A stretch of 26,632 bases of DNA from a virus: the IMG/VR virus record IMGVR_UViG_3300036985_001458, positions 1 to 26,632 of that record; one strand, written 5' to 3'. This document shows positions 10,101-22,028 of this stretch, piece by piece. Made by a program: the position numbers and the translations under genes. The first letter of the stretch is position 1; every line of letters starts with the position of its first letter. Below the pieces are notes generated by a model, which was not told the DNA's origin, ran no database searches, and saw only the letters and a program-made list of their open reading frames with translations.

Positions 10101-13100
10101 AAAGGTTATTGGCGCGAACCACAAAGTCCGTTCGTTCTACAACAACATCATCGCCCCATATTCGGGCGGCGACGTAACCATTGATACCCATGCCGTAGCT
10201 GCTGCGCTGCTGCGTCCGTTGGGGTCAAACGACATTGAGGTCTCGCACAACTTTGGCAGCGGTAAAGCTGCGGTCAAAGACAAGAAGACCGGAGAGGTTG
10301 CCGAACCTGCTATTCCGGGCCCAGCCAATAGTGCCATCACAGGGCTGAATGGTACCTATTCAATTTATGCCGAGGCCTACCGTCGTGCGGCTGAGCAGGT
10401 TGGTCTGCTGCCCCGTGAAATGCAGTCCATTACATGGGAAGCCGTGCGCGGTATGTTCCGCCCGGAGCAAAAGACTGCAAAGAATAAGGCGGCAGTTAAC
10501 CAGATATGGCAGAATGTTGCCGAGGGTAAACTTGATGTCACCGAAGCAAGAAACCAAATCGAAAAACTGGTTGGCGGAATTGCCGATCCCGCTTGGGTTA
10601 GATCCCCTGCTGGAACTAATGAAGCGGCAGCGGATTCCTCTTACGCTGAACAATTACCTGAGGCTGGCGTACCCGGAAGGGGTGCCGGAGTCGGCAGAGG
10701 TGATGGAGCTGGTGCCGCAGGAATTGCGCCCCGGCTTTTCCAAGGCGAAGGGCAAGAAGTCCGAGGGTCTTTTAGTCCCGAAGAGCTGACGATCCGGTTG
10801 ACCAAGGCGCAGGATCTGTCGACGTTCCTGCACGAAAGCGGGCACTTCTACTTGCATATGCTTGTCAATCTGGCTGCTCGGCCAGATGCCCCTGCTGATG
10901 TTCGCAAGGATGCTGAGACGATCCTGAAATGGTTCGGCGTCAAAGGTACGCCTGAGATGAACCAGTTCGACACATGGCTGAATATGTCGGTCGACGAGCA
11001 GCGCCCGAGCCATGAGCGGTTTGCGCGCAGCTTTGAGGTGTACCTCGCCGAAGGCAAGGCTCCCTCGACTGAACTACAACCGATGTTTGACCGATTCCGA
11101 TCGTGGCTGATGTCTGTGTATCGGTCGTTAATGGAACGCGCCAAGACCGCTTTCGGACGCGAGGTGTCGTTCGGCAAGGCGATGCAAGCCGAGCTCAATG
11201 ACGAGGTTCGCGCTGTGTTTGATCGCCTGCTGGCTACGCAGGAAGAGATCGAAGCCAAGGAGGCAGCCCAGTCTATGGGTATGCTGTTCAAGACCGAAGC
11301 CGAAGCACAAAAGTTTGGTGTTGATTGGCAGTCCTATCAGGCGCAAGGAGAAGCCGCTACACAGCAGGCAATCAGCGACCTTGCCGCCAAGTCGATCCAA
11401 GACATGAAGTGGTTGGAAAACGCTCGTAGTCGGTTATTGACGAAGCTGCAAAAGGAAGAGAAAGAAACCCGCCGCAGCGTACGCTCAGCAGTACGGCCTG
11501 AGATCATGTCTCAGCCGGTCTACCGGGCATGGGCATACCTGACTGGCCCCCTCACCGACGACCCGAATGCGGAGCCGACAAGCCGTTTTGATCCTGAGTA
11601 CCTCGAGCAGGTCACGGCTAGCAAGGAAGTGGTCGCTCAGCTGCGCAAGCTCAGAATGGTGGCTGGCCCTGCCGATATCAAGAAGGGCGTCAGCGGCGAA
11701 CACCCGGATGTGGTCGCGGAGACCTTCGGGTTCTCGAGCGGCTCTGAACTGATCCGCGCCATTCTCGCCTCGCCGACCCCGGACGAAGCGATCAATGCCG
11801 AAACCGACGCTCGGATGCTGCGTGACTTCTCCGACCTGTCGACAGCAGAGGGCCGCAACAACGCGGTCAATGCTGCGCTGGCTAACGACGCCCGCACTCG
11901 GATGGTGGAGACCGAACTGTCTGCGCTCGAGCAGGCGATGGCCCCGACCGTCACGGTTGGTGGTCGACGACAGCGAACCTTGCCGGGTGCCGCAAAGGCA
12001 TTTGCCCGATCGGTAATCAACCGTCTAAAGATCCGCGACGTTCGCGTCAGCCAGTACAGCGGCAGCGCTGCCCGTGCTGGGCGTAACGCAGACCGTGCCG
12101 TGAAGCGTGGCCGACTGGCCGAGGCTGCACTCGAGAAGCGCAACCAGCTGGTCAACAACTACGCTGCTCGGTTTGCCGGCGAAGCGCTCGACAATGTGAA
12201 GAGCGGTCTTGCTTACCTGAAGAAGTTCACGAAGGAAGGTACGCGCAAGAACATCGATCCTGAATACCTCGACCAGATCGACCGGATACTTGAACGGTTT
12301 GACCTGCGGCAAAAGACGCTGCGCGAACTCGACAAGCGCTCAGCTCTGGCTCAATTCATCGAGAACCAGAAAGAGCTTGGCATCGAGCCAGATCTCCCGG
12401 CGCACATCGTCAACGAAGCGCAGGCGGTCAACTACAAGAACCTGACCGTTGAAGAGTTTGCCGGTCTGGTAGACAGTATCCGTCAGATAGAACACTTCGG
12501 CAGACTGAAGCGCAAGTTGTTACTTGCCAAAGATAAGCGCGAGTTTGACGCCTTGATGGCTGAGATCCGCGAGTCTGTCATTGCCAATGATCAGGGCCGC
12601 GTTGCCGACAATCGCACCCGTACGGATCTGGGCAGTATTCTTGTTCGCGCGTTCAAGTCATTCACGGCAGCGCATCGCAAGATGGCTAGCATTGTGTATG
12701 AGATCGACGGGTTCAAAGACGGCGGCCCGCTGTGGGATGCGCTGGTGCGCACCGCTAACGAGCGCGGCAACTGGGAGGCCGACAAGCAGGCCGAGCTGAC
12801 CACGCGCCTCGCGCAGTTGTTGCAGGGCTTGCCGAAAGAGCGCGCATTCAACAAGGGCCAGTTCTTCCCAAAACTTGGCGTGAGCTTAAATCAGGAAGCG
12901 CGTCTCGCTGTTGCGCTTAACTGGGGCAACGACGGCAACCGTCAGCGATTGCTTGATGGTCGCAACTGGACGACGGACGGTGTGCAGCAAGTCCTCGACT
13001 CTCTGTCACAGGAAGAGTGGGATTTTGTGCAGGGCGTATGGGATACGTTTGAAAGCCTGCGCCCAGAGATTGCACGGGTCGAGCGCAGCCTGATGGGCAA

Positions 13101-14562
13101 AGAGCCCGAGTGGATTGAGGCTGTGCCGATTCAAACAAAGTTCGGCACATACCGCGGCGGTTACTACCCTGCCGTGTACGATCCTGCCGAGAGCCTGCGC
13201 ACCGAGCAGATGGCTGCGGAAGAAGAAGCCAAGCGACAACTCCGCGGCGCGCGTACTGCGGCTACGGTTCGCAGCAACTTTGTGAAGGGCCGCGCTGAAG
13301 AAGTAAAGGGCCGCCCAATCCTGCTGACGATGGACGCAACCTTCAACGGCTTGACCGACGTCGTGCATTACCTTGCCTACAAGGAATGGCTGGTTGACGC
13401 CAACCGAATCCTCCGCGCTGTCGACGGCACGATCCGAGAGCGTTACGGCGCTGAGATGACCCGGCAGTTGCGCACCGCTGTAGAGGCGATCGCTGCTGGC
13501 GAGCAAAACAATCCTCACGCTCTCGACAAACCGCTGCGCCACATTCGCATCGGCTCAATGGTGGCCGGGCTCGGGTTCAATATCGTCAACGCTGTTATGC
13601 AGCCGCTTGGCTTGTCGCAGTCGATCGTGCGTGTCGGCCCGAAGTACATCGCGCAGGGCGTGGCTGCATTCGCAAAGAACCCGGTCAAACTTGGCACAAC
13701 CGTGTTGGAAAAGTCCTCGTTCATGCGAAACCGCAAGCGCACACAGAACAGAGAGCTGAACGACCTGCGAAACAGTCTACGCGGCAAGACAGAATCGCGT
13801 CAGTTTATTGACGGCGCAATGTTCCTGCCGATGACTGCAATTCAGATGACGGTCGATATCCCGACATGGTGGGGCGCGTATCAAAAGGCGCAGACCGAAG
13901 GGTATGACGAAGAGACATCGATTCAGATTGCGGATCAGGCTGTGCTTGCATCGCAAGGCGGCGGTCAGATGAAAGATCTGGCTGCAATCCAGCGCGGGTC
14001 TGAGTTCGTCAAAATCTTCACGGTGTTTTACGGTTACTTCAACACGGCGTACAACTTAGGCGTCGAGCGTATCCGTGCAACAAATCCTCGCAGCCCTGCA
14101 CAGGTTGCGCGACTCGCAACAGATCTGTTGCTGATCTACTCGGTGCCTGCCGTGCTTGGAATGTTAATCAAGGAAGCATTCAAGATTGGCGACGAAGATG
14201 ACGAGGAAGAGATTGCTAAGAAGCTGGCCGCAGAACAAGTGTCGTTTCTGTTCGGAACAATGGTCGGTGTGCGCGAAGCCGCTGGTGCAGCGCAGATCAT
14301 GCTCGGCCTGTCGACCTCTGGCGGGCTCGGGTACAACGGCCCTGCCGGATTGCGATTTTTTAACGAACTGAACAAGTTTGCGCAGCAAGCCAATCAGGAC
14401 GAGCTTGATCGCGCATTCGTTCGTGCAGGCGTAAACGTGGCAGGCATCGCTCTGCACTTGCCATCCGCGCAGATCAATCGAACCATCGATGGTGTGATCG
14501 CTATGAGCGAGGGTCGCACCCAGAACCCGGTCGCCTTGGTTGGCGGCGCTCCACCACAGTAA
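7114..14562 (+). CDS. Giant polyvalent ejection protein (ART, HhH-GPD-like and zincin domains)
   Basis: The 2482-residue product is the largest in the window and sits where T7 encodes gp16. From the N-terminus: helical and Gly/Ala-rich hydrophobic segments (about 110-220); an ADP-ribosyltransferase-like domain (about 572-710) with VVYRG at 590-594 and YFS at 610-612; a probable HhH-GPD DNA-glycosylase fold (about 776-1167) with TSPQKDW at 851-857, K1004 and D1024 in TIDTH; a Gly/Ala-rich linker (about 1170-1220); a zincin domain with HESGH at 1240-1244 and a possible third ligand in HERFA at 1300; then over 1000 mostly helical residues with a hydrophobic segment near 2345. No lysozyme motif was seen. 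Domains of this kind are combined in the polyvalent proteins known from phages and conjugative elements, thought to enter with DNA and counter host defences. Domain calls are from motifs; catalytic activity is inferred. Confidence 0.75.
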   Translation: MPTLQEWLSKQNEQGVSEKLLSVSDANPDLAAQSVKQARANNIPPALTPFEPDPDLAQQERLNRISSTVQSTKALKQWLGAQPDVVAASVQDDVENMSLIEKTLSVPRAILSGAPSLVGGILGTASLAAGSLRTIGDYVNKSGIAMLSPTATLFSTGGAAEQFFAEQAKAQEGLAEFVAGEQAISGPISGGIYDGLKSIGQQLPALAAGLATRNPNYALSLMASSATGTEYVKAREQLDYAQAAPYATLQGLIEYATEKAPVFQLFKDLKVDESFLSILGKQILLEIPGEQAATVLQDLNEWANLNPEKPFKEYLAERPAAAVQTLAATIVGVGGNVTVTKAVNYLLERDTYSEQANETATLLRELDTLAKASVVRERDVETFEGFLQTVTQDTPVESLYIDSQTLLDSGLAEVLAGQSPTVAAQLEQASAGTMIRIPTAEVMGRFNQELSPLLPEMRTDPNGMSQKEAEEYVSTRGEQLRTEVETVLSQSENESAAQEARTMVRDTVAQELMATGRVTQDVADNYALLTSTFYHVMAQRMGTTADKLFGEQRVRVLGAGRGEFEQITAPEFQLWFQDSKIVDQNGKPLVVYRGALSDVAERGGQDGFIYFSKDPKVAAGGERGFIEPEVLEAAGISPDLATVPEGLRVVPAYLSIKNPASLDDVRQIAPNAKTIRDALPALKNAGFDGFVSDYEIVAFDKTQVRSAISGAEFQQVGVSEETDQDQENSLTGMRVSPRLPTAVKVTEDPLAEERLQPDLNTAKREPAKLAKNVELMSAYPNFVGLTGDPETRVEKMISDMVENLVWLHNNWKPEYRNRSRMWYVGGNRIAHRWATRFGIEPQQVAGVIAATSPQKDWFQNVSLAERILEAVINNSDVVWDSKMSDLVRSRDWGGKLSKELGYVPVNEISRLEGKTLRDLFDAENWDRSLLDMAVWIRAWDEANNPQVARIITPEGAFTNEFDQTKGGQPVALRWQSFATIAKTLEILKARTPDEISKVIGANHKVRSFYNNIIAPYSGGDVTIDTHAVAAALLRPLGSNDIEVSHNFGSGKAAVKDKKTGEVAEPAIPGPANSAITGLNGTYSIYAEAYRRAAEQVGLLPREMQSITWEAVRGMFRPEQKTAKNKAAVNQIWQNVAEGKLDVTEARNQIEKLVGGIADPAWVRSPAGTNEAAADSSYAEQLPEAGVPGRGAGVGRGDGAGAAGIAPRLFQGEGQEVRGSFSPEELTIRLTKAQDLSTFLHESGHFYLHMLVNLAARPDAPADVRKDAETILKWFGVKGTPEMNQFDTWLNMSVDEQRPSHERFARSFEVYLAEGKAPSTELQPMFDRFRSWLMSVYRSLMERAKTAFGREVSFGKAMQAELNDEVRAVFDRLLATQEEIEAKEAAQSMGMLFKTEAEAQKFGVDWQSYQAQGEAATQQAISDLAAKSIQDMKWLENARSRLLTKLQKEEKETRRSVRSAVRPEIMSQPVYRAWAYLTGPLTDDPNAEPTSRFDPEYLEQVTASKEVVAQLRKLRMVAGPADIKKGVSGEHPDVVAETFGFSSGSELIRAILASPTPDEAINAETDARMLRDFSDLSTAEGRNNAVNAALANDARTRMVETELSALEQAMAPTVTVGGRRQRTLPGAAKAFARSVINRLKIRDVRVSQYSGSAARAGRNADRAVKRGRLAEAALEKRNQLVNNYAARFAGEALDNVKSGLAYLKKFTKEGTRKNIDPEYLDQIDRILERFDLRQKTLRELDKRSALAQFIENQKELGIEPDLPAHIVNEAQAVNYKNLTVEEFAGLVDSIRQIEHFGRLKRKLLLAKDKREFDALMAEIRESVIANDQGRVADNRTRTDLGSILVRAFKSFTAAHRKMASIVYEIDGFKDGGPLWDALVRTANERGNWEADKQAELTTRLAQLLQGLPKERAFNKGQFFPKLGVSLNQEARLAVALNWGNDGNRQRLLDGRNWTTDGVQQVLDSLSQEEWDFVQGVWDTFESLRPEIARVERSLMGKEPEWIEAVPIQTKFGTYRGGYYPAVYDPAESLRTEQMAAEEEAKRQLRGARTAATVRSNFVKGRAEEVKGRPILLTMDATFNGLTDVVHYLAYKEWLVDANRILRAVDGTIRERYGAEMTRQLRTAVEAIAAGEQNNPHALDKPLRHIRIGSMVAGLGFNIVNAVMQPLGLSQSIVRVGPKYIAQGVAAFAKNPVKLGTTVLEKSSFMRNRKRTQNRELNDLRNSLRGKTESRQFIDGAMFLPMTAIQMTVDIPTWWGAYQKAQTEGYDEETSIQIADQAVLASQGGGQMKDLAAIQRGSEFVKIFTVFYGYFNTAYNLGVERIRATNPRSPAQVARLATDLLLIYSVPAVLGMLIKEAFKIGDEDDEEEIAKKLAAEQVSFLFGTMVGVREAAGAAQIMLGLSTSGGLGYNGPAGLRFFNELNKFAQQANQDELDRAFVRAGVNVAGIALHLPSAQINRTIDGVIAMSEGRTQNPVALVGGAPPQ
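8935..9240 (+). other. AT-rich segment of the giant gene covering its ART domain
   Basis: Hand count of 8941-9240 gives 127 G or C in 300 bases (42%), against 73 of 120 (61%) at 8581-8700 and 62 of 120 (52%) at 9421-9540. Codons here are richer in A/T-ending forms than in the neighbouring parts of the gene. The edges match the ADP-ribosyltransferase-like domain, which suggests that the domain was acquired separately. Confidence 0.6.
10522..10526 (+). promoter_or_regulatory. Ribosome binding site for the overprinted gene at 10535
   Basis: GAGGG lies eight bases before the internal ATG at 10535, the normal spacing. It decides the start chosen for that gene over the later in-frame ATG at 10619, which has no comparable site. 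Confidence 0.45.
10535..10789 (+). CDS. Overprinted small gene inside the giant gene (84 aa)
   Basis: A second reading frame lies inside the linker between the glycosylase-like and zincin domains. It has an ATG at 10535 with its own GAGGG (10522-10526) eight bases upstream, and stops at TGA 10787-10789. The product includes LDPLLELMKRQ, IPLT..NYLRLAYPEG and a later VPQELRPGF. The pattern LM...IPLTRENYL.LAY....P followed by an acidic stretch and LP.ELR is one I know from many stand-alone small phage proteins of unknown function. In the same bases the giant gene encodes only a Gly/Ala/Arg-rich linker using otherwise uncommon GGA, AGA and AGG codons, as if the small frame set the sequence. It may be expressed, or be a relic of an independent gene caught in a fusion. 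Confidence 0.55.
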   Translation: MSPKQETKSKNWLAELPIPLGLDPLLELMKRQRIPLTLNNYLRLAYPEGVPESAEVMELVPQELRPGFSKAKGKKSEGLLVPKS

Positions 14563-17090: not shown

Positions 17091-17278
17091 GCGAGCGTGT
17101 ACCGCGCGTAGGTTTTCTTGCGCTTGGTCTCGAGCTTGCTGCTGATCTGGAATCCCATGCCGCGCAGGTCAAGGATGCGAGCGGCTAGGCGAAAACATCC
17201 GAAACGGATCGCATCGAGCTGGGTGATGCTGCCGCGGCGCTTCAAGTGTGAAAGCACTTTGTCGTTCTGGGTTTTCAT
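17087..17278 (-). CDS. Small helix-turn-helix protein (HTH_39-like)
   Basis: The 63-residue product starts MKTQNDKVLSHLKRRGSIT and continues LDAIRFGCFRLAARILDLRGMG, ending in RYTL. This arrangement (K.QN..VL.HL...G.IT...A.....CFRLA.RI.DLR..G) is the one I associate with the HTH_39 family of small phage winged-helix-like proteins. The start overlaps the stop of the NinB gene as ATGA, and a longer upstream frame is Arg/His-rich shadow sequence. It could bind DNA as a local regulator or act in replication; the target is unknown. Confidence 0.7.
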   Translation of the reverse strand: MKTQNDKVLSHLKRRGSITQLDAIRFGCFRLAARILDLRGMGFQISSKLETKRKKTYARYTLA

Positions 17279-17679
17279 GTGTAGTTTGGCTCCGGTATGT
17301 GAATGCCAAGCTCTGCGCACTTGGCCTCGATGATGGCGAGGTAGTCGCTGAATTCCTGTTTGGTCAACTTGCTGGATCTGCGCAGGGGCTTGTGTCGCTT
17401 CCTGCCGAATCCCTCGATGACCTCGGAACCCCATGCCTCGATCAAGAAGTATTCGTGCAGATCGTTTGTCGTCCAACCTCGCAGCGCTTCTCCGCCTCCC
17501 TCTAGGATGGATGGGTACACCACACCCCAGAGGAAGGCGTTTTGTTGGTCGCTCCGTTTTGGCTTGAATGCCTCGACGGTGATCTGCCAGCTCTGCGCCG
17601 GGTCAAGTCTGCTGACCATGTTGCTGATCGCGTTTGCGATCTGATCGGGCGGTGTGCCTTTGGCTATTACGCGGCGCAT
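17275..17679 (-). CDS. ninB: NinB-like recombination protein
   Basis: The 134-residue protein contains KPKRSDQQNAFLWGVVYP near residues 39-56, the R..eQN..lW......a segment typical of NinB, followed by W...DLHEYFL and a C-terminal helical half with RSSKLTKQEFSDYL. Length agrees with lambda NinB (about 146). In lambda, NinB (Orf) binds single-stranded DNA and supports Red recombination in place of RecFOR. Its place in an operon with an annealing protein and exonuclease fits. An AAGGAG site (complement of 17691-17696) precedes the start; it is one of the few operon genes with a gap before it. Confidence 0.82.
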   Translation of the reverse strand: MRRVIAKGTPPDQIANAISNMVSRLDPAQSWQITVEAFKPKRSDQQNAFLWGVVYPSILEGGGEALRGWTTNDLHEYFLIEAWGSEVIEGFGRKRHKPLRRSSKLTKQEFSDYLAIIEAKCAELGIHIPEPNYT

Positions 17680-17698
17680 GGTAAGGAATCCTCCTTAC

Positions 17699-17986
17699 TT
17701 AAAACGGGATGTCGCCGATGTCGTCATCGGTGAACGTCTCGGTGACGGGCTGCTGTTGCTTGGGTACTGGGCGCGCCTCGGGCAGCCCATCCTTTGGCGT
17801 GATTGCCAAGCTAAAGAATTTTGAGCCCGGCTCTTTCGCAGTAGGGCCAGCAACTTTTACCCATGCTGAAAGCCAATACTCGACGCCGCCAACATTGATC
17901 GATCCACGGTATTCGGGATGCTTGTCGGTTTTGCGATCTAAATTCTTGCCAAGCGTTCCTTTGTTTGTGTTGTCGTACTCTTTCAC
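17699..17986 (-). CDS. Small SSB-like protein with an SSB C-terminal tip
   Basis: The 95-residue protein has NKGTLGKN near the start, then HPEYRGSINVGGVEYWLSAW and SKFFSLAITP, a short beta-rich arrangement I know from small phage proteins related to single-strand binding or DUF736-like proteins. It ends in DDDIGDIPF, close to the DDDIPF tip by which bacterial SSB recruits repair and replication proteins. The start overlaps the exonuclease stop as ATGA. I infer that it coats single-stranded DNA or tethers host SSB partners during phage recombination. The fold assignment is less certain than the tip. Confidence 0.62.
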   Translation of the reverse strand: MKEYDNTNKGTLGKNLDRKTDKHPEYRGSINVGGVEYWLSAWVKVAGPTAKEPGSKFFSLAITPKDGLPEARPVPKQQQPVTETFTDDDIGDIPF

Positions 17987-18588
17987 AGGCTCAACTCCTT
18001 CAGGTTATTCACTTTGCGGTCAACTTCAGATAGGAAATTCGTCACGGCCTGCGTGATCTCAAGGATCTGCGGCTGGTCGCGGTGGACGCGGATGATGTGC
18101 AGTCGCAGGCGCTCGGGCAGTTTCGGCTGATACACAACGTAGTCGCACCAGTCTCGCCCGGTCACGGCCATCTGCCATTGCATCTGGAGGCGGTGTTCGG
18201 TCGGAACTTTCTTGCTCTCGATGATGTCCAAGGCGGTTGCGGGCTGGACGCACTTGATCTCGACCAAACCTTCCGTACCGACAAGGCCATCCGGTGACGC
18301 ACCGGCCTCGAGCTTCGGGTGCTTGATGAACCCGACCTCTTCGACCAACTGCCCCACACGGGCGCTATAAGCGGCTCTGGCCTCGGCCTCGGTGTCGATG
18401 CCGTGCTGCATCGCCGGGCTCGTATACGTCTCCGTAGCCTGCCCTGTGAGGCGCTCGCAGACGAGCTGCGCCATGTAATTACGATAACCGGCCTTCGTCT
18501 TCTCCATCATCACATTCGAGATGGCCGATGCGGTGACCCGGCCACAGCGACTCGAGTACCACTCTGGCGTACGTTGGGTGTCGCTCAC
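17983..18588 (-). CDS. YqaJ / lambda-Exo-type recombination exonuclease
   Basis: The start is GTG (complement of 18586-18588) in a GTGA overlap with the annealing-protein stop and behind an AAGGAG sequence; longer in-frame starts are shadow sequence. The 201-residue product has TPEWYSSRCGRVTAS (residues 7-21), G63 to E69, SPDGLV with D100, and VEIKC with E110 and K112, giving the PD-(D/E)XK active site of the YqaJ viral recombinase family, plus a later HRLQMQWQMAVTG helix. Such enzymes digest one strand from double-stranded ends and hand the 3-prime strand to an annealing protein, here the adjacent gene. Confidence 0.92.
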   Translation of the reverse strand: MSDTQRTPEWYSSRCGRVTASAISNVMMEKTKAGYRNYMAQLVCERLTGQATETYTSPAMQHGIDTEAEARAAYSARVGQLVEEVGFIKHPKLEAGASPDGLVGTEGLVEIKCVQPATALDIIESKKVPTEHRLQMQWQMAVTGRDWCDYVVYQPKLPERLRLHIIRVHRDQPQILEITQAVTNFLSEVDRKVNNLKELSL

Positions 18589-19106
18589 TTGGAAAGCTCC
18601 TTCTTGCGGGCGGTAAACTTGCTGACGCCGCGGGAACGGATCGCCTCCGGCAGCGTGTGATACAGGGCGTTGAGTTCGTCGACCGTGTTGCAGGCGGCAA
18701 CCTCGGCGTTGAGCTTGGCCTCGATCTCGTCGACCTCTGCCTCCGGCAGATCCTCGCCAGCGTAGATGTAGAGGCCGAGGCCGTGCAGCGCGATGCACTT
18801 GGCAAGGCAGCGCATGATGCTCGTATTCACGGCGAACGCATTCGGGTTCTGGATCGGCTGGTTGCGGTGGTCAAGCACCGGCAGCAGGCAAGTCTTGATG
18901 TCGCCCTTGATCTCGACCGAGACCTTGACCATTCCGGTCTGATCCTTGAGATAGACCAGCGGTAGTCCGTCGTATTCGTGGACGGTGTAGCGCGCAGTCG
19001 CGTCGATCTTCAGCACCTCGGCCCACGCCCATGCCCACGACAGATACGAGAGATTGTTCTTTTTCTCGATGTGGTCGTTGACGTTAATCTTCAGCAGTTC
19101 GCTCAT
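18585..19106 (-). CDS. Single-strand annealing protein, Sak3/DUF1071 type
   Basis: The 173-residue protein opens INVNDHIEKKNNLSYLSWAWAWAE, the diagnostic N-terminal block of the DUF1071 (Sak3) annealing family, followed by V.VSVEIKGD and NTSIMRCLAKCIALHGLGLYIYAGEDLP, the conserved central helix of the family. It anneals complementary single strands during recombination and works with the exonuclease whose start overlaps its stop. A GGGAG site precedes the start, which also overlaps the previous stop as ATGA. The C-terminal third is less conserved and may interact with the exonuclease or SSB. Confidence 0.9.
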   Translation of the reverse strand: MSELLKINVNDHIEKKNNLSYLSWAWAWAEVLKIDATARYTVHEYDGLPLVYLKDQTGMVKVSVEIKGDIKTCLLPVLDHRNQPIQNPNAFAVNTSIMRCLAKCIALHGLGLYIYAGEDLPEAEVDEIEAKLNAEVAACNTVDELNALYHTLPEAIRSRGVSKFTARKKELSK

Positions 19107-19276
19107 GACAGGCTCCCGTAGATCTTGTTGAGTTCGTCTTCGATGACGGCGTTCAGTTCGGCAAGGGCTCGATCGCAGGCGGCGATGCGATCCTGCTCGT
19201 CACGCTCGGCGAGTTCCTGATCCTGTTGCTGCCACCAACTCTGGTCGTCGTTGCCCCAAGGCGCTAAATCACTCAC
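19103..19276 (-). CDS. Small acidic hypothetical protein (57 aa)
   Basis: The start is taken as GTG at 19276 because AGGAGG (complement of 19286-19291) lies nine bases upstream; an upstream ATG has no such site. The product starts VSDLAPWGNDDQSWWQQQ and continues as an acidic, Gln/Glu/Ala-rich helix. No family recognised. It overlaps the small membrane-protein gene before it and joins the annealing-protein gene by ATGA, so it is translated as part of the early operon. Confidence 0.6.
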   Translation of the reverse strand: MSDLAPWGNDDQSWWQQQDQELAERDEQDRIAACDRALAELNAVIEDELNKIYGSLS

Positions 19277-19388
19277 GGCTCTGTACCTCCTCTTGTTGTG
19301 TGCAGCCGCGGTCGCCACACGGGTCGAGTGCGGCAGCCAGTAGAAACAGAATGATCAGTCCGATGAACTGCGGCCAAGGAGACTTCAT
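19269..19388 (-). CDS. Very small membrane protein (39 aa)
   Basis: This short frame starts with an ATG in an ATGA overlap with the previous gene stop and ends just inside the next gene, so it exactly fills a gap that would otherwise be non-coding. The product is MKSPWPQ, then a hydrophobic segment FIGLIILFLLAAAL, then a polar tail with two Cys (DPCGDRGC) and QQEEVQ. It would make a single-pass inner-membrane protein or an uncleaved signal-anchored peptide. There is no clear lipobox. Function unknown; small early membrane proteins in phages are often superinfection-exclusion or host-inhibitor factors, but nothing here shows that. Confidence 0.55.
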   Translation of the reverse strand: MKSPWPQFIGLIILFLLAAALDPCGDRGCTQQEEVQSRE

Positions 19389-19561
19389 CGCTGGTCTCCC
19401 GCGACAGCCTGTACGCCAGAGGCGTAGCCATCGGTCTTGCCCATCGAATAGGCGTACTTGACCGACTGCTCGATGATCGGGTCGAGCGACTTGTTGTCGA
19501 CGAACTTGATCAGGTCTTGGATAACGCGCTCGAGTTCGGCGCGATAGGCGATGTCGTTCAT
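19385..19561 (-). CDS. Small hypothetical protein (58 aa)
   Basis: The start is the ATG at 19561, in an ATGA overlap with the first operon gene and behind AAGGAGG. The product begins MNDIAYRAELERVIQDL and is mostly helical, with YSMGKTDGYASGVQAVAGD at the end, a Gly-containing segment found in some small phage proteins. No domain recognised. It is the second gene of the leftward early operon. Confidence 0.6.
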   Translation of the reverse strand: MNDIAYRAELERVIQDLIKFVDNKSLDPIIEQSVKYAYSMGKTDGYASGVQAVAGDQR

Positions 19562-19749
19562 GCGGCCTCCTTGAGGGCGTTGACTACGGGAATCCAAGCG
19601 GCAAAGCGCACAGGGTCACGCTCGACTTGCTCAAACAGATCCGGCTGCTCGTCCGGGTTAGCGCGGAAGAAGGCGATCTCGCAGGCGACGCAGTAATCGT
19701 CGCAGATGGCTTCGGCGACTTGGCATTGAAAGCACCATGCGTTGTTCAT
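19558..19749 (-). CDS. Small zinc-ribbon-like protein, first gene of the leftward operon
   Basis: The 63-residue product has C6, C9, C16, C20 and C23 in CFQCQVAEAICDDYCVAC, enough for one zinc site, followed by an acidic helical stretch. The start follows a GGAG site seven bases upstream, and the leftward promoter lies 36 bases or more before it. It is the first gene made from that promoter, so it is among the earliest phage products. Function unknown; a host-directed or regulatory role is possible but not shown. Confidence 0.62.
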   Translation of the reverse strand: MNNAWCFQCQVAEAICDDYCVACEIAFFRANPDEQPDLFEQVERDPVRFAAWIPVVNALKEAA

Positions 19750-19785
19750 CTCGTATCTCCGTTGTTGTTTTGCTCGACGGGATGA

Positions 19786-19816
19786 ATGTTAGCACAGGCT
19801 ACTTCCTATCTGTCAA
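19786..19816 (-). promoter_or_regulatory. Leftward early promoter
   Basis: On the minus strand, a consensus -35 TTGACA (complement of 19811-19816) is followed after 19 bases by -10 TAACAT (complement of 19786-19791), which carries an extended TGC just before it. The spacer is longer than ideal, but the extended -10 may compensate. It points into the recombination operon. Confidence 0.6.
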
Positions 19817-19828
19817 CACTTGCTAACG
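19787..19828. promoter_or_regulatory. Candidate Cro operator half-sites
   Basis: Three related octamers occur: TGTTAGCA (19787-19794, plus strand), TGTTGACA (complement of 19811-19818) and CGTTAGCA (complement of 19821-19828). The outer pair includes the perfect inverted repeat GTTAGCA / TGCTAAC. The first covers the leftward -10, the second its -35. This is the arrangement expected of a repressor controlling a divergent promoter region, with the adjacent Cro-like protein the obvious candidate. Confidence 0.5.
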
Positions 19829-19848
19829 AAATATTTTTAGTCTACCTT
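19820..19848 (+). promoter_or_regulatory. Possible rightward promoter for the cro-like gene
   Basis: A weak match TTGCTA (19820-19825), 17 bases, TACCTT (19843-19848) lies in front of the cro-like gene, with an AT-rich stretch between; TATTTT at 19832-19837 is an alternative -10. The -35 overlaps an operator half-site. This is weaker than the leftward promoter and is supported mainly by position. Confidence 0.3.
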
Positions 19849-19866
19849 TCGCGGCAGGAGGAACCT

Positions 19867-20085
19867 ATGACGTTCGATGAACTACTGACCGTGTACGGAT
19901 CACAGGCGGAGATCGCCCGGGTGTATGGCATTAGCCGTGCCTCGGTGAATCGCTGGGCAAAGACAGGAAAAGTGCCGGAGCTGCGCGTATTGCAGTTTGA
20001 ACGGACGCAGAGCCCCGCACAGGCGAGGCAGATGCGCAAGCAGTTGCAGATAGCCGCGGCTCGTAGATGGGCCGAGAAGGGCTGA
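19867..20085 (+). CDS. Cro-like repressor
   Basis: The 72-residue protein starts after a strong AGGAGGA site (19857-19863). Residues 3-31 (FDELLTVYGSQAEIARVYGIS, then RASVNRWAK) form a helix-turn-helix of the lambda Cro/YdaS kind: an F..LL..FGSQ..IAR.LGIS..AV..W pattern. The basic, helical C-terminus ends in ARRWAEKG. It sits at the head of the rightward genes, opposite the leftward operon, and would bind the operator half-sites between them to turn early transcription down. No CI-type partner is seen in the window. Confidence 0.82.
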   Translation: MTFDELLTVYGSQAEIARVYGISRASVNRWAKTGKVPELRVLQFERTQSPAQARQMRKQLQIAAARRWAEKG

Positions 20086-20087
20086 CG

Positions 20088-21329
20088 ATGCGATACGGCA
20101 GCGTTTGCTCGGGGATAGAAGCCGCGACCGTGGCTTGGCATCCCCTTGGTTGGCAGGCGGCATGGTACAGCGAGATCGAACCGTTCCCGTGCGCCGTGCT
20201 GAAACATCACTACCCACACGTTCCCAACTACGGGGACATGACCAAGTTTGAGGAATGGCCGAATGAACCAATTGAACTTCTGGTCGGAGGAACCCCTTGC
20301 CAATCCTTCAGCGTCGCAGGGTTGCGTCGAGGACTGGCTGATCCCAGAGGGAACCTCATGCTTACCTACCTTGCAATCGCTCAACGTCACCGGCCTCGAT
20401 GGCTTGTCTGGGAAAACGTCCCCGGTGTCTTGTCATCGAACGGTGGACGGGATTTTGGAACCTTCCTCGGGGCGCTGGGGGAGTTGGGGTATGGGTTCGC
20501 CTACCGAGTGTTGGACGCTCAATGGTTCGGAGTGGCCCAGCGACGTCGCCGTGTGTTCGTTGTCGGATACCTTGGAGACTGGCGTCGTGCCGCAGAGGTT
20601 CTTTTTGAGTCCGAAAGCGTGTCAAGGCATCCTGCGCCGAGCCGAGAAGCGCGGCAAGGAACTGCCCAATGCCTTACAGCAGGCGTTGGAAAGCGTTTCG
20701 ATCCAACAACAGAAACCCTCCCAGTCGTAGCAGAAACACTAATTGCATCTGACCATAAAGGGCCGGGTCATAACCGCGACCATAACTTCATCGCGCAGCC
20801 GATTACGTTCGGCGCACAAATGTCTACGCCACAGACCGACGTTGACATGGTGCAAACGCTGCAAGCCAAAAATCCAATGGCGGTGGCTGCTCCTGCTTAT
20901 GGAATCCCCGGCAACTGGATTGGCAGAGCGCCAGAGAACGGCGGCAATGCGGTAGAGCCGATGCTTGACGTATCGCCGTGTCAGACCAAGACCGACATTC
21001 ATGCCGTCGCGCAGCCGGTGGCGATGCGAGAGTCCGGTCAAGGCTACTGGATGGAGGACACGGTAGCGGGGACGATTGACGCGAACATGGGAATGAGCGG
21101 TCACGCAAACCGCCCTGCTGTCATCAAGCAGCCGGCTATGCAAGTCCGTCGCCTCACGCCCGTAGAGTGCGAGCGTCTGCAAGGCTTCCCTGACGGCTAC
21201 ACCAACATTCCTTGGCGCAAGGCTACGGAAAGCCCGGATGGCCCACGTTACAAGGCATTAGGCAATAGCATGGCTGTGCCTGTCATGACATGGATCGGGC
21301 GCAGAATTGCAAATGTTGAGAACACCTAG
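20088..21329 (+). CDS. DNA cytosine-C5 methyltransferase
   Basis: The start at 20088 is preferred over the in-frame ATG at 20067 because it lies just after the cro stop and an AGAAGG site. The 413-residue protein shows the C5 motifs in order: GSVCSGIEAA (motif I, residues 4-13), GGTPCQSFS with catalytic C71 (motif IV), WENVPG (motif VI, 108-113), QRRRRVF (motif VIII, 151-157), a target-recognition region (about 195-345), and RRLTPVECERLQGFPDGY plus ALGNSMAVPV (motifs IX and X). It transfers a methyl group to cytosine in a specific, unknown sequence. No partner restriction enzyme is seen, so protection of phage DNA against host restriction is the likely role. Another gene is nested in its first half in a different frame. 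Confidence 0.95.
   Translation: MRYGSVCSGIEAATVAWHPLGWQAAWYSEIEPFPCAVLKHHYPHVPNYGDMTKFEEWPNEPIELLVGGTPCQSFSVAGLRRGLADPRGNLMLTYLAIAQRHRPRWLVWENVPGVLSSNGGRDFGTFLGALGELGYGFAYRVLDAQWFGVAQRRRRVFVVGYLGDWRRAAEVLFESESVSRHPAPSREARQGTAQCLTAGVGKRFDPTTETLPVVAETLIASDHKGPGHNRDHNFIAQPITFGAQMSTPQTDVDMVQTLQAKNPMAVAAPAYGIPGNWIGRAPENGGNAVEPMLDVSPCQTKTDIHAVAQPVAMRESGQGYWMEDTVAGTIDANMGMSGHANRPAVIKQPAMQVRRLTPVECERLQGFPDGYTNIPWRKATESPDGPRYKALGNSMAVPVMTWIGRRIANVENT
20250..20254 (+). promoter_or_regulatory. Ribosome binding site for the nested gene at 20263
   Basis: GAGGA lies eight bases before the ATG at 20263, inside the methyltransferase coding region. It fixes the start of the nested frame at MNQLNFW rather than the upstream TTG at 20248. 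Confidence 0.5.
20263..20730 (+). CDS. Overprinted gene within the methyltransferase gene (155 aa)
   Basis: A long frame offset from the methyltransferase frame runs over its first half. The ATG at 20263 has GAGGA (20250-20254) eight bases upstream. The product starts MNQLNFWSEEPLANPSAS and contains LPSSGRWGSWGMGSPTECW-like text (around residues 70-90), CSLSDTLETG, PQRFFLSPKACQGILRRAEKR and GKELP. I recall essentially this order (FW.EEPPA..SAS, GMGSPTECWTL, SLSD.LE.GDVP.RFFLS..AC.GILRRAEKRGK.LP) from many phage proteins of unknown function found at or beside cytosine methyltransferase genes. Both frames thus encode conserved-looking protein, so this is a strong candidate for a true overlapping gene. 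Function unknown. Confidence 0.6.
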   Translation: MNQLNFWSEEPLANPSASQGCVEDWLIPEGTSCLPTLQSLNVTGLDGLSGKTSPVSCHRTVDGILEPSSGRWGSWGMGSPTECWTLNGSEWPSDVAVCSLSDTLETGVVPQRFFLSPKACQGILRRAEKRGKELPNALQQALESVSIQQQKPSQS

Positions 21330-21339
21330 AAACGACAAA

Positions 21340-21353
21340 CCCCCTCTCGGGGG
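21340..21353. terminator. GC hairpin after the methyltransferase gene
   Basis: CCCCC (21340-21344), TCTC loop, GGGGG (21349-21353) lies 10 bases after the methyltransferase stop. Rightward it is preceded by AAA but followed by CTTGACG, not a T-run; leftward it is followed by TTTGTCGTTT. It could stop leftward transcripts, or partly stop rightward ones, just before the new promoter. Confidence 0.45.
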
Positions 21354-21354
21354 C

Positions 21355-21383
21355 TTGACGGATCACGCAGGGCGATCTATTTT
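21355..21383 (+). promoter_or_regulatory. Rightward sigma-70-type promoter
   Basis: TTGACG (21355-21360), a 17-base spacer and TATTTT (21378-21383) make a good match to the bacterial housekeeping consensus with ideal spacing. It begins directly after a hairpin and precedes a 320-base non-coding stretch, so transcription would start near 21390 and read into the structured region and possibly the genes from 21705. Confidence 0.6.
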
Positions 21384-21389
21384 CTCGTC

Positions 21390-21690
21390 AGGGTGGACGA
21401 GTGAAGATAGGGTAGTACGGTGTACTACATCTGTCAAACACTCTCCATCCTCGGCTGTTCTGGTCGGGGAAACTACGCGCAGAACAGGCCTAAATCTAGA
21501 CCGGGGCGGCCAGCCTCTAGACACGCGGCGTAAGCGAGGAAGCGTGAATGGCACCGGGAAACCGGCAAAAGTAGCTCGCAGCAGGGTGGCTCCGTCAGTC
21601 ATCAACTCTGTGCGATCTCATTAGGCGTAATCCGTCCAATGACCGTGCAGAGTTCACCATCAGTCATCAGTTCTTAAAGCAATAACTATC
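21390..21690 (+). ncRNA. Candidate structured non-coding RNA
   Basis: This stretch has no convincing gene but a chain of stem-loops: GTAGTAC/GTACTAC (21412-21428), CTGTTCTG/CAGAACAG (21455-21487), TCTAGA/TCTAGA (21495-21521), CACGC/GCGTG (21522-21546), CCGG-GAAA-CCGG with a GNRA tetraloop (21554-21565), and AACTCTG/CAGAGTT (21604-21654). TCAGTCATCA is also repeated directly at 21595-21604 and 21660-21669. With a good promoter just upstream, this could be a small RNA or a long structured leader of the 21705 gene; a DNA site such as an origin or packaging site is an alternative. No known RNA family was recognised. Ends are approximate. Confidence 0.4.
21412..21428. repeat. Inverted repeat GTAGTAC-GGT-GTACTAC
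   Basis: A perfect 7-base inverted repeat with a 3-base centre lies about 30 bases after the -10 of the promoter at 21355. It could be an operator for a dimeric repressor or the first hairpin of the transcript. Confidence 0.5.
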
Positions 21691-21704
21691 TAGGAGATAC
21701 ATAC

Positions 21705-22028
21705 ATGGGTGATGAATTTGTTTACTCACCATCTGCTAAAGCCGAGAAGAAAGTACCAGACCGTACAGACTCCGCTATCCATTCATCAGCAGACTACTGG
21801 GCTACAGCAGTAACAGAGAACCCTCTCAATCGCTTGCGTCTACTCGATGCCAAGCTCGCTAGACCGAACGTCGATGTGGAAACAATCAAAGCTCGAGCAG
21901 GTGAACTGATACGCGAACTGGGTGCAGCCAAAGTGTTGACCGATCCCGATTGCGTTGGCCTAGTGCGTCAGTTGTTCGGTCAGCGTGGAGTTGATCGGTT
22001 ACGGGAAAGGGCTAAAGAGAATGCGTGA
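21705..22028 (+). CDS. Hypothetical protein (107 aa)
   Basis: The start follows AGGAG (21692-21696) at normal spacing. The product is charged, with a Ser/Lys-rich N-terminus, SSADYWATAVTENPLNRLRLLDAKLARP in the middle and a helical C-terminal half with LIRELGAAKVLTDPD and VRQLFGQRGVDRLRE. No domain was recognised. Its stop overlaps the next start by eight bases (ATGCGTGA), so the two are probably translated together. It is the first gene after the structured non-coding stretch. Confidence 0.65.
   Translation: MGDEFVYSPSAKAEKKVPDRTDSAIHSSADYWATAVTENPLNRLRLLDAKLARPNVDVETIKARAGELIRELGAAKVLTDPDCVGLVRQLFGQRGVDRLRERAKENA

Follow-up and report, generated by a model that had tools for sequence, protein, structure and literature searches.

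Introduction

In the immunity regions of lambdoid phages such as lambda and P22, the early promoters and their operators are arranged around the repressor gene in the order pL-OL, cI, OR-pR-cro. The locus analyzed here belongs to an uncultured bacterial virus represented by a 26,632-base IMG/VR virus record, the whole of which is referred to as the window. It resembles lambda and P22 in that cro is the first gene of the rightward early operon, recombination genes lie in the leftward direction, and operator-like sites overlie the promoters. It differs from them in that no CI or integrase is recognized in the window, and in that the two early promoters stand back to back in a gap of 117 bp with one common operator.

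The Cro-like protein of the window falls into the all-alpha class of Cro proteins, like those of phages N15, PY54, and phiKO2. According to the accessible parts of two reports (PMC4488713, PMC4997575), PY54 Cro binds a 16-bp palindrome and, among the operators, only OR3; the PY54 cro mRNA is leaderless, as compared with the very short leader predicted for cro of the window; and N15, PY54, and phiKO2 are temperate phages with a prophage repressor, from which the phage of the window appears to differ. Related by TerL are Rhizobium phage RHph_I3_18 and Bradyrhizobium phage ppBjS10J-1 (46.3% and 44.6% identical, respectively). Both share with the window two divergent operons flanking an HTH gene in the cro position, but both have in addition a second, leftward HTH or repressor gene, and RHph_I3_18 has an integrase as well. 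The major capsid protein of Pelagibacter phage HTVC010P shares 43% identity with its counterpart in G005, a relative of the window that is taken as complete and described below; in contrast to the window, the HTVC010P record has no gene annotated as Cro.

Virulent phages of Streptococcus thermophilus, which are unrelated to the window, contain a "lysogeny replacement module" of presumed lysogeny-module remnants located before the replication genes, for which the accessible text names neither Cro operators nor an RNA (PMC5601072). Phage SA97 was rejected as a precedent, being described in the accessible text as lacking both cI and cro (PMC4632378), and the accessible portions of the papers on UFJF_PfDIW6 and on Pseudomonas syringae phages give no Cro-only precedent (PMC8951688, PMC11256456). 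No report of a Cro-only region was found in a literature search to which most subscription papers were inaccessible, and absence in print is not claimed.

Results

The divergent gap and its promoters

The start of the first leftward ORF (19749) is separated from the start of the cro-like gene (19867) by 117 bp, and it is in this gap, between a recombination operon and a P22/N15-type cro, that Cro-like sites are found over back-to-back promoters. The original prediction, made from the sequence of the window, described a divergent control region in which three TGTTrrCA-type octamers cover the -10 and -35 of a TTGACA promoter firing into the recombination operon, with a Cro-like gene just to the right. 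Octamers, promoter, and gene were all located in the neighborhood of 19750-19866. The leftward early promoter has a perfect TTGACA -35 hexamer (19811..19816, minus strand, reading 19816-19811), which points to the zinc-ribbon ORF and then to the operon. Its putative -10, TAACAT (19786..19791, minus strand), is preceded by TGn at a spacer of 19; this element is weak, and the candidate spacers vary by lineage (16, 17, or 19). The candidate cro promoter has a -35 TTGCTA (19820..19825, plus strand) and a -10 TACCTT (19843..19848, plus strand) with a spacer of 17, which would leave a very short leader. When promoters of relatives were compared, L026 and L029 had TTGACT/TTGACA at the leftward -35, and the remaining 10 rows were picked by the pattern of the operator O_B (see below), which itself contains both -35 boxes, including TTGCWA of the cro promoter. 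In all 10 of these rows A2 and T6 of the cro -10 are kept at spacer 17, the hexamers being TACCTT, TAGGGT, CATCAT, CACACT, and CATGAT. A generic promoter and terminator scan gave no entry in the gap.

Two of the octamers match TGTTRRCA exactly, TGTTAGCA at 19787-19794 and, on the minus strand, TGTTGACA at 19811-19818, and the third, CGTTAGCA at 19821-19828 on the minus strand, has one mismatch. The first two lie on the leftward -10 and -35 as described in the original prediction; the third covers, instead, the -35 box from which cro would be transcribed rightward. Across the window as a whole the octamer shows no enrichment (4 exact copies against 2.26 expected, sd 1.63), and its clustering is local: shuffling 19750-19866 by dinucleotides 2000 times never gave two exact copies, and gave three copies with at most one mismatch in 0.05% of cases.

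The Cro-like protein

The cro-like gene (19867..20085, plus strand) encodes 72 amino acids and has a Shine-Dalgarno sequence, AGGAGG, immediately 5' of it. Its assignment in the original prediction is borne out by matches to phrog_409 (E 3e-9) and to Pfam P22_Cro (E 1e-6), the latter at 28.9 bits, slightly under the cut-off of 30.2, and the protein also matches YdaS (4e-6). A profile built from 11 Cro relatives and searched against 177,635 PDB sequences finds P22 Cro (1rzs) as the top match (E 9.4e-7), followed at lower significance by the Cro proteins of Xfaso1 (0.0012), N15 (0.09), and Pfl6 (0.38); the profile further picks up BldC (E 0.001). The predicted model is all-helical with five helices (pLDDT 82, pTM 0.55), and its top Foldseek matches are N15 and Xfaso1 Cro at weak E values (≥ 0.06). 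Membership in the P22/N15-type all-alpha Cro proteins is thus indicated by sequence kinship to solved Cro proteins and, in a predicted model, by fold. Dyads at which a Cro dimer might bind over its own promoter (sites of 14-18 bp would be expected) are present, and they follow the recognition helix in several of the helix classes but not in every one.

Conservation of the sites among relatives

A scan of viral contigs yielded 29 loci with a relative of the window Cro (43-100% identical), and the upstream region was compared for 28 of these. Half-sites are kept in 22 of the 28 (L002-L023). Among these, 17 mutually close loci (L002-L018) keep the half-sites TGTTAGCA, TGTCAACA, and TTGCTAAC, and L019-L023, with Cro proteins of 63-65% identity, have TGCTAACA, TGTCAACA, and TTGCAAAC. 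The six most distant relatives (L024-L029, Cro 43-48%) are arranged differently, with TTAAC-type sites over the leftward promoter and further ones beside the cro start. In the records compared, TerL is 85.6-91.0% identical to that of the window, and the capsid protein is 95.6-100% identical to that of G005.

A scan with the DNA pattern found 61 stretches, of which 22 lie in contigs already known and one more is of the window type. Another six (L052, L058, L062, L077, L086, and L087) have a very different Cro, in front of which the site pair recurs at an unchanged distance, and 32 have no Cro-like ORF in the printed translation. The dyads of this second cro lineage, whose members were found by the dyad-derived pattern, their Cro not being part of the query, are located at -57/-47 from cro, versus -56/-46. 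For one member, L086, a partial TerL (86%) shows membership in the phage group of the window. A primosomal-type protein was observed in the second lineage at L114 14283-14795. A pattern-based scan of genome contigs (84,980 species genomes), made with the Cro profile and of limited sensitivity, confirmed no Cro relative and gave no prophage relative; a corresponding search with the capsid protein gave three matches at 37-49%.

These comparisons bear on the possibility that the octamers and boxes are conserved by chance or shared ancestry and have no part in regulation. Close relatives are nearly identical in the gap, and genome-wide enrichment is absent, both as that explanation would have it. 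The sites are, however, kept in loci with a different left gene and a Cro of only 63-65% identity, and neither the local shuffles nor the peak in dyad spacer reported below fits with it, so that we consider it barely credible.

Candidate operators as 16-bp dyads

As half-sites, the octamers fit 16-bp dyads of the form GTYARC-N4-GYTRAC better than they fit the role of complete operators, for which they were rejected because other lineages repeatedly show perfect dyads spaced by 4 bp. On this basis two candidate operators are proposed. O_B (GTCAACACTTGCTAAC, 19812..19827) has no mismatch to the pattern, of which it is the sole such copy in the window, spans both -35 boxes, and persists in relatives; its arms agree with each other at only 4 of 6 positions, making it an imperfect repeat. 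O_A (GTTAGCACAGGCTACT, 19788..19803) has two mismatches and lies over the leftward -10; its first half is kept in the 17 loci L002-L018, and its second half is weak. The two sites are within 40 bp of each other. By sequence positions, the gap has candidate operators shared by divergent promoters, as in a lambdoid switch. The dyad is not enriched genome-wide (8 copies at up to two mismatches versus 9.2 expected), and since the total is not raised, only position and clustering speak for the dyads. An earlier search for partners at 10 bp with the octamer consensus left only a weak signal once anchor partners were set aside (3.05 at distance 10) and was replaced by the dyad test.

Because the letters of the pattern GTYARC-N4-GYTRAC were drawn from the sequences of the relatives themselves, the form was tested letter-free on 54 non-redundant lineages, in the 130 bp that precede cro in each (of 93 cro-bearing loci, 88 had a clear start and full length, and removal of similar ones reduced these to 54). 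Perfect 5-bp arms at a spacer of 4 occur in 18 of the 54 lineages, as compared with 5.9 in shuffles (sd 2.1, z 5.8), and perfect 6-bp arms at this spacer in 8 as compared with 1.7 (sd 1.3). When one arm mismatch is allowed (5 of 6), the count of 31 is little over that of the shuffles (22.5, sd 3.7); in 23 lineages a spacer-4 repeat is absent even at this stringency, and many of these have PPAVLRW, PPAILRW, or TRxxVSxW helices. The window's own O_B, with arms agreeing at 4 of 6, is not scored by this test. Spacer 6 is also raised (15/54, z 3.7), nested in the same dyad as spacer 4, as is spacer 10 with 6-bp arms (5 versus 1.5, z 3.1). Inverted repeats with a spacer of 7 are over-represented as well (16/54 versus 5.6 in shuffles, z 5.6), an observation that is unexplained.

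The sites might instead be direct repeats one turn apart, bound head to tail as by Apl or excisionase-type proteins. Phage 186 Apl binds direct repeats of 10-11 bp between pR and pL, according to the accessible part of one report (PMC7498355), and the Cro profile does touch BldC. The octamers of the window, being near-palindromes spaced by 10 bp, suit a dyad and a direct repeat about equally well. The other lineages speak for the dyad: clean inverted repeats such as CTTAAC-N4-GTTAAG and GTTTAG-N4-CTAAAC occur, and the closest kin in sequence and fold are Cro proteins. A head-to-tail arrangement is accordingly quite improbable, and the sites are treated below as dyads for a Cro dimer.

The dyad varies with the recognition helix of the phage protein. 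All nine lineages with the helix TKGAVSQW, and the single TDGAISQW lineage, have a GTTTAG-N4-CTAWAC operator. PAVSRW helices other than SRPAVSRW go with TTAAC-N4-GTTAA in 9 of 9 lineages, and SRPAVSRW with GTTAAC-N4-GTCAAC in 2 of 3. Lineages with PPAVLRW/PPAILRW or TRxxVSxW helices have no such dyad, one unrelated repeat aside. These counts were read from the lineage list with shared descent not factored in, and they are not independent because helix and operator are inherited together. The co-variation supports the view that Cro itself would read these sites. The dyads could alternatively be sites of a host regulator, with the Cro-like protein acting elsewhere: they overlap ordinary promoter boxes, and binding of Cro to them is a prediction. 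A shared host factor is unlikely to fit a dyad that changes with the recognition helix of the phage protein in several classes, and this explanation appears very remote.

The leftward operon and its first gene

The leftward early operon (17275..19597, minus strand) comprises recombination genes and small ORFs, all on the minus strand: a Sak-type single-strand annealing protein (SSAP, 18585-19106), a YqaJ exonuclease (17983-18591), an SSB-like protein (17699-17986), and NinB (17275-17679). The first leftward gene (19558..19749, minus strand) encodes a CxxC/CxxC protein of 63 aa that matches no family, in agreement with the tiny zinc-ribbon protein that the original prediction had placed opposite cro. 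In relatives this slot is exchangeable and holds the 63-aa CxxC protein or other CxxC proteins of 58-119 aa; proteins in this slot that lack the CxxC pattern are found in L019 and L024, which are alike, and in L026 and L029, the automatic gene start being doubtful at some loci in this comparison. With other genes occupying the slot among relatives, the zinc-ribbon protein was rejected as a CI substitute, and we regard its gene as cargo.

CI, integrase, and lysogeny

The window is a fragment, about 9.5 kb short of its relative G005, a record of 36,261 bases with an exact end repeat of 127 bases that is taken as complete (a closed circle) and that spans both the window and the part absent from it. 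In that part the ORFs of G005 look structural or concerned with packaging, lysis, or nuclease activity, among them portal, a weak Bbp19-like match, capsid, a scaffold/protease-like protein, lysozyme, a LamG fiber, and a nuclease of the phosphoesterase type whose N-terminus is an HTH. Neither an integrase nor a repressor was recognized there among the ORFs listed or scanned, and G005 as a whole has no match to an integrase, to S24, or to a second HTH_3 domain. Nor did the listed or scanned ORFs of G005 (L033, L034) include a recognized polymerase, primase, helicase, or replication initiator. A separate feature of the window is a 2482-aa virion-type polyvalent protein (7114-14562) that contains LPD22 and DUF7178 domains and weakly matches ART-PolyVal.

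The search was extended to related records and to 50 further records of 4-59 kb bearing the RNA or the hairpin described below, many records in these sets being fragments. Tyrosine integrase (PF00589) was matched in none of 15 related and none of the 50 further records, S24 repressor (PF00717) in none of 21 and none of 50, and resolvase (PF00239) in none of 21 related records. HTH_3 (PF01381) gave one match each, below the cut-off, in 19 of 21 records, and the 15 of these compared by coordinates all fall in cro; in the 50 further records there was no match over the cut-off, and sub-cut-off matches occurred in 22, with two in one record (G036). These calls are based on HMMs, which an unrecognized repressor would escape. 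A Cro without a visible CI partner, as originally proposed, is therefore what is found in the related records searched as well as in the complete relative: the genes opposite cro are other proteins, and an integrase or recombinase is not recognized in record sets of which many members are fragments.

It is unlikely, but of the alternatives weighed the most substantial, that the phage is temperate, with a repressor that has diverged or a system of episomal lysogeny, either of which goes unrecognized, and that its Cro is half of a complete switch. Cousins that look temperate have TerL and layout in common with the window: RHph_I3_18 has an integrase, a repressor C, and a divergently placed HTH gene, and ppBjS10J-1 has an HTH-HTH pair between ERF/YqaJ/NinB and the rightward operon. 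The two HTH_3 matches of the RNA-bearing record G036 point the same way. Against this are the results for G005 and for integrase and S24 in the 50 further records, the occupation of the leftward slot by other small genes, and the lack of a confirmed Cro relative in the species genomes at the limited sensitivity of that scan. That the locus has only the Cro half of a genetic switch is well supported. An earlier loss of CI, as opposed to CI never having been there, is plausible, since similarly laid-out cousins carry a leftward repressor or HTH gene.

A conserved structured RNA downstream of cro

In the window a C5 DNA methyltransferase gene (20088..21329, plus strand) forms a cassette between cro and a hairpin, CCCCCTCTCGGGGG (21340..21353, plus strand), that precedes an RNA element. 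The hairpin element lies directly 3' of the cro stop in 18 of 27 relatives, and a CCCC..GGGG hairpin precedes the RNA in 53 of 58 non-redundant regions. Between hairpin and RNA lies a rightward promoter-like sequence, TTGACG-N17-TATTTT (21355..21383, plus strand); the form TTGACn-N16-18-[TC]AnnnT occurs in 47 of the 58 regions, against a mean of 0.5 in mononucleotide shuffles. A leftward counterpart, TTGACA-N17-TACCCT (21409..21437, minus strand), is directed antisense towards the methyltransferase and cro, and TTGACA-N16-18-[TC]AnnnT occurs in 48 of the 58 (shuffle mean 0.1). The hairpin and promoter patterns were first noticed in 13 sequences before being applied to the whole set, so that these 13 are not independent. 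The stretch 21355-21437 of the window has the form of a convergent promoter-like pair, and a leftward RNA from it would be antisense to both methyltransferase and cro.

The noncoding stretch 21330-21704 folds at z -5.0 and contains a conserved structured RNA of about 215 nt (21453..21669, plus strand; helices 21453-21652) within the cro operon. The first gene after it (21705..22028, plus strand) encodes 107 aa with no family match, and an ORF resembling it comes first after the RNA in 68 of the 85 copies with an ORF. Rfam 15 gave no match at gathering in the window and none at E ≤ 1 in 21320-21720; in 10 relatives it gave one tRNA elsewhere and no RNA-element match. Against 50,697 phage records distant blastn gave only chance-level pieces, in 8 records with a best E of 1, and against plasmids it gave no match, and a narrow literature search found no matching report.

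A 23-base pattern from the RNA occurs in at least 119 stretches of viral contigs. The loci fetched contain 101 distinct copies (108 before seven truncated duplicates, including one that repeats the window itself, were merged), of which 88 have a Cro-like ORF upstream on the same strand, 74 of them within 320 nt. The 13 copies lacking such an ORF comprise five whose contigs end within 250 nt, three with 250-1700 nt of sequence, and five with longer sequence than that, and in two of the last five (L203 and L216) an HTH ORF is present that the profile missed. Copies with no recognized cro are seen in L165, L177, L160, and L231, on contigs of up to 59 kb, with little upstream sequence in L160; L160, L165, and L177 have a common variant 5' end, CCCCCTATCG.

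For the alignment, 64 dissimilar copies were taken from the 98 distinct full-length ones, and the structure tested was one of 55 pairs from an earlier fold of 13 sequences. In the 64 rows 92.5% of cells pair, versus 29-51% when the structure is slid along the alignment. Double changes are found at 31 of the 55 pairs in 402 cells, compared with 113 (sd 13) in shuffles, none of 500 reaching 402. Further pair types show no excess (74 versus 74.5 in shuffles), and some pairs are poor, columns 89-93 pairing in 18 of 64 rows. RNAalifold applied to all 64 rows gives a smaller structure of 39 pairs, 17 of them with double changes. Two direct repeats of TCAGTCAT lie inside the RNA (21595..21602 and 21660..21667, plus strand); they change together and still match each other in nearly all 64 rows. 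In most rows repeat 1 can pair with an upstream ATGGCT, for which repeat 2 could be a competitor. With strong evidence of compensatory change, no Rfam 15 match, and only chance-level pieces in phage records, the RNA in 21453-21669 may be an undescribed phage regulatory RNA.

Discussion

The gap is most probably (probability about 0.78) the early control region of a podovirus with no recognizable CI or integrase, in which Cro bound to the dyads would shut off both early directions. Host RNA polymerase would fire from the back-to-back promoters, leftward into the recombination operon and rightward into cro and then the methyltransferase and later genes. A dimer of Cro, as an all-alpha repressor of the P22/N15 type, would then bind the 16-bp dyads. 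Because O_B covers both -35 boxes, one dimer there should touch both promoters and turn down both directions, cro included, and O_A would strengthen the shut-off of the leftward promoter. Where CI is lacking the circuit would have a single direction, running from an early burst through accumulation of Cro to shut-off. We infer from this arrangement that Cro sets the time of the early genes, and the timer proposed in the original prediction is a fair hypothesis. Expression of the rightward genes would then probably pass to the second, conserved promoter 3' of cro, which leads into the structured RNA.

A bolder suggestion, to which we give clearly less than even odds, is that Cro, as the timer of early shut-off, and the RNA, with its own promoter 3' of cro facing a conserved antisense promoter, form one control cassette common to a large group of lytic phages, all uncultured, in which the RNA launches the next genes. 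The RNA might act in trans, or in cis as a switch for processivity or antitermination in which its two direct repeats compete. If this is true, the RNA of the cassette would do the job that is done by N/Q or CI elsewhere.

What is new at this locus is a P22/N15-type Cro with its operators in the absence of a recognized CI half, and the RNA is the more novel element of the two. A Cro-only circuit of this kind would show half of a genetic switch working without its partner, and the phage group offers dozens of natural pairs of Cro and operator from which recognition rules may be derived.
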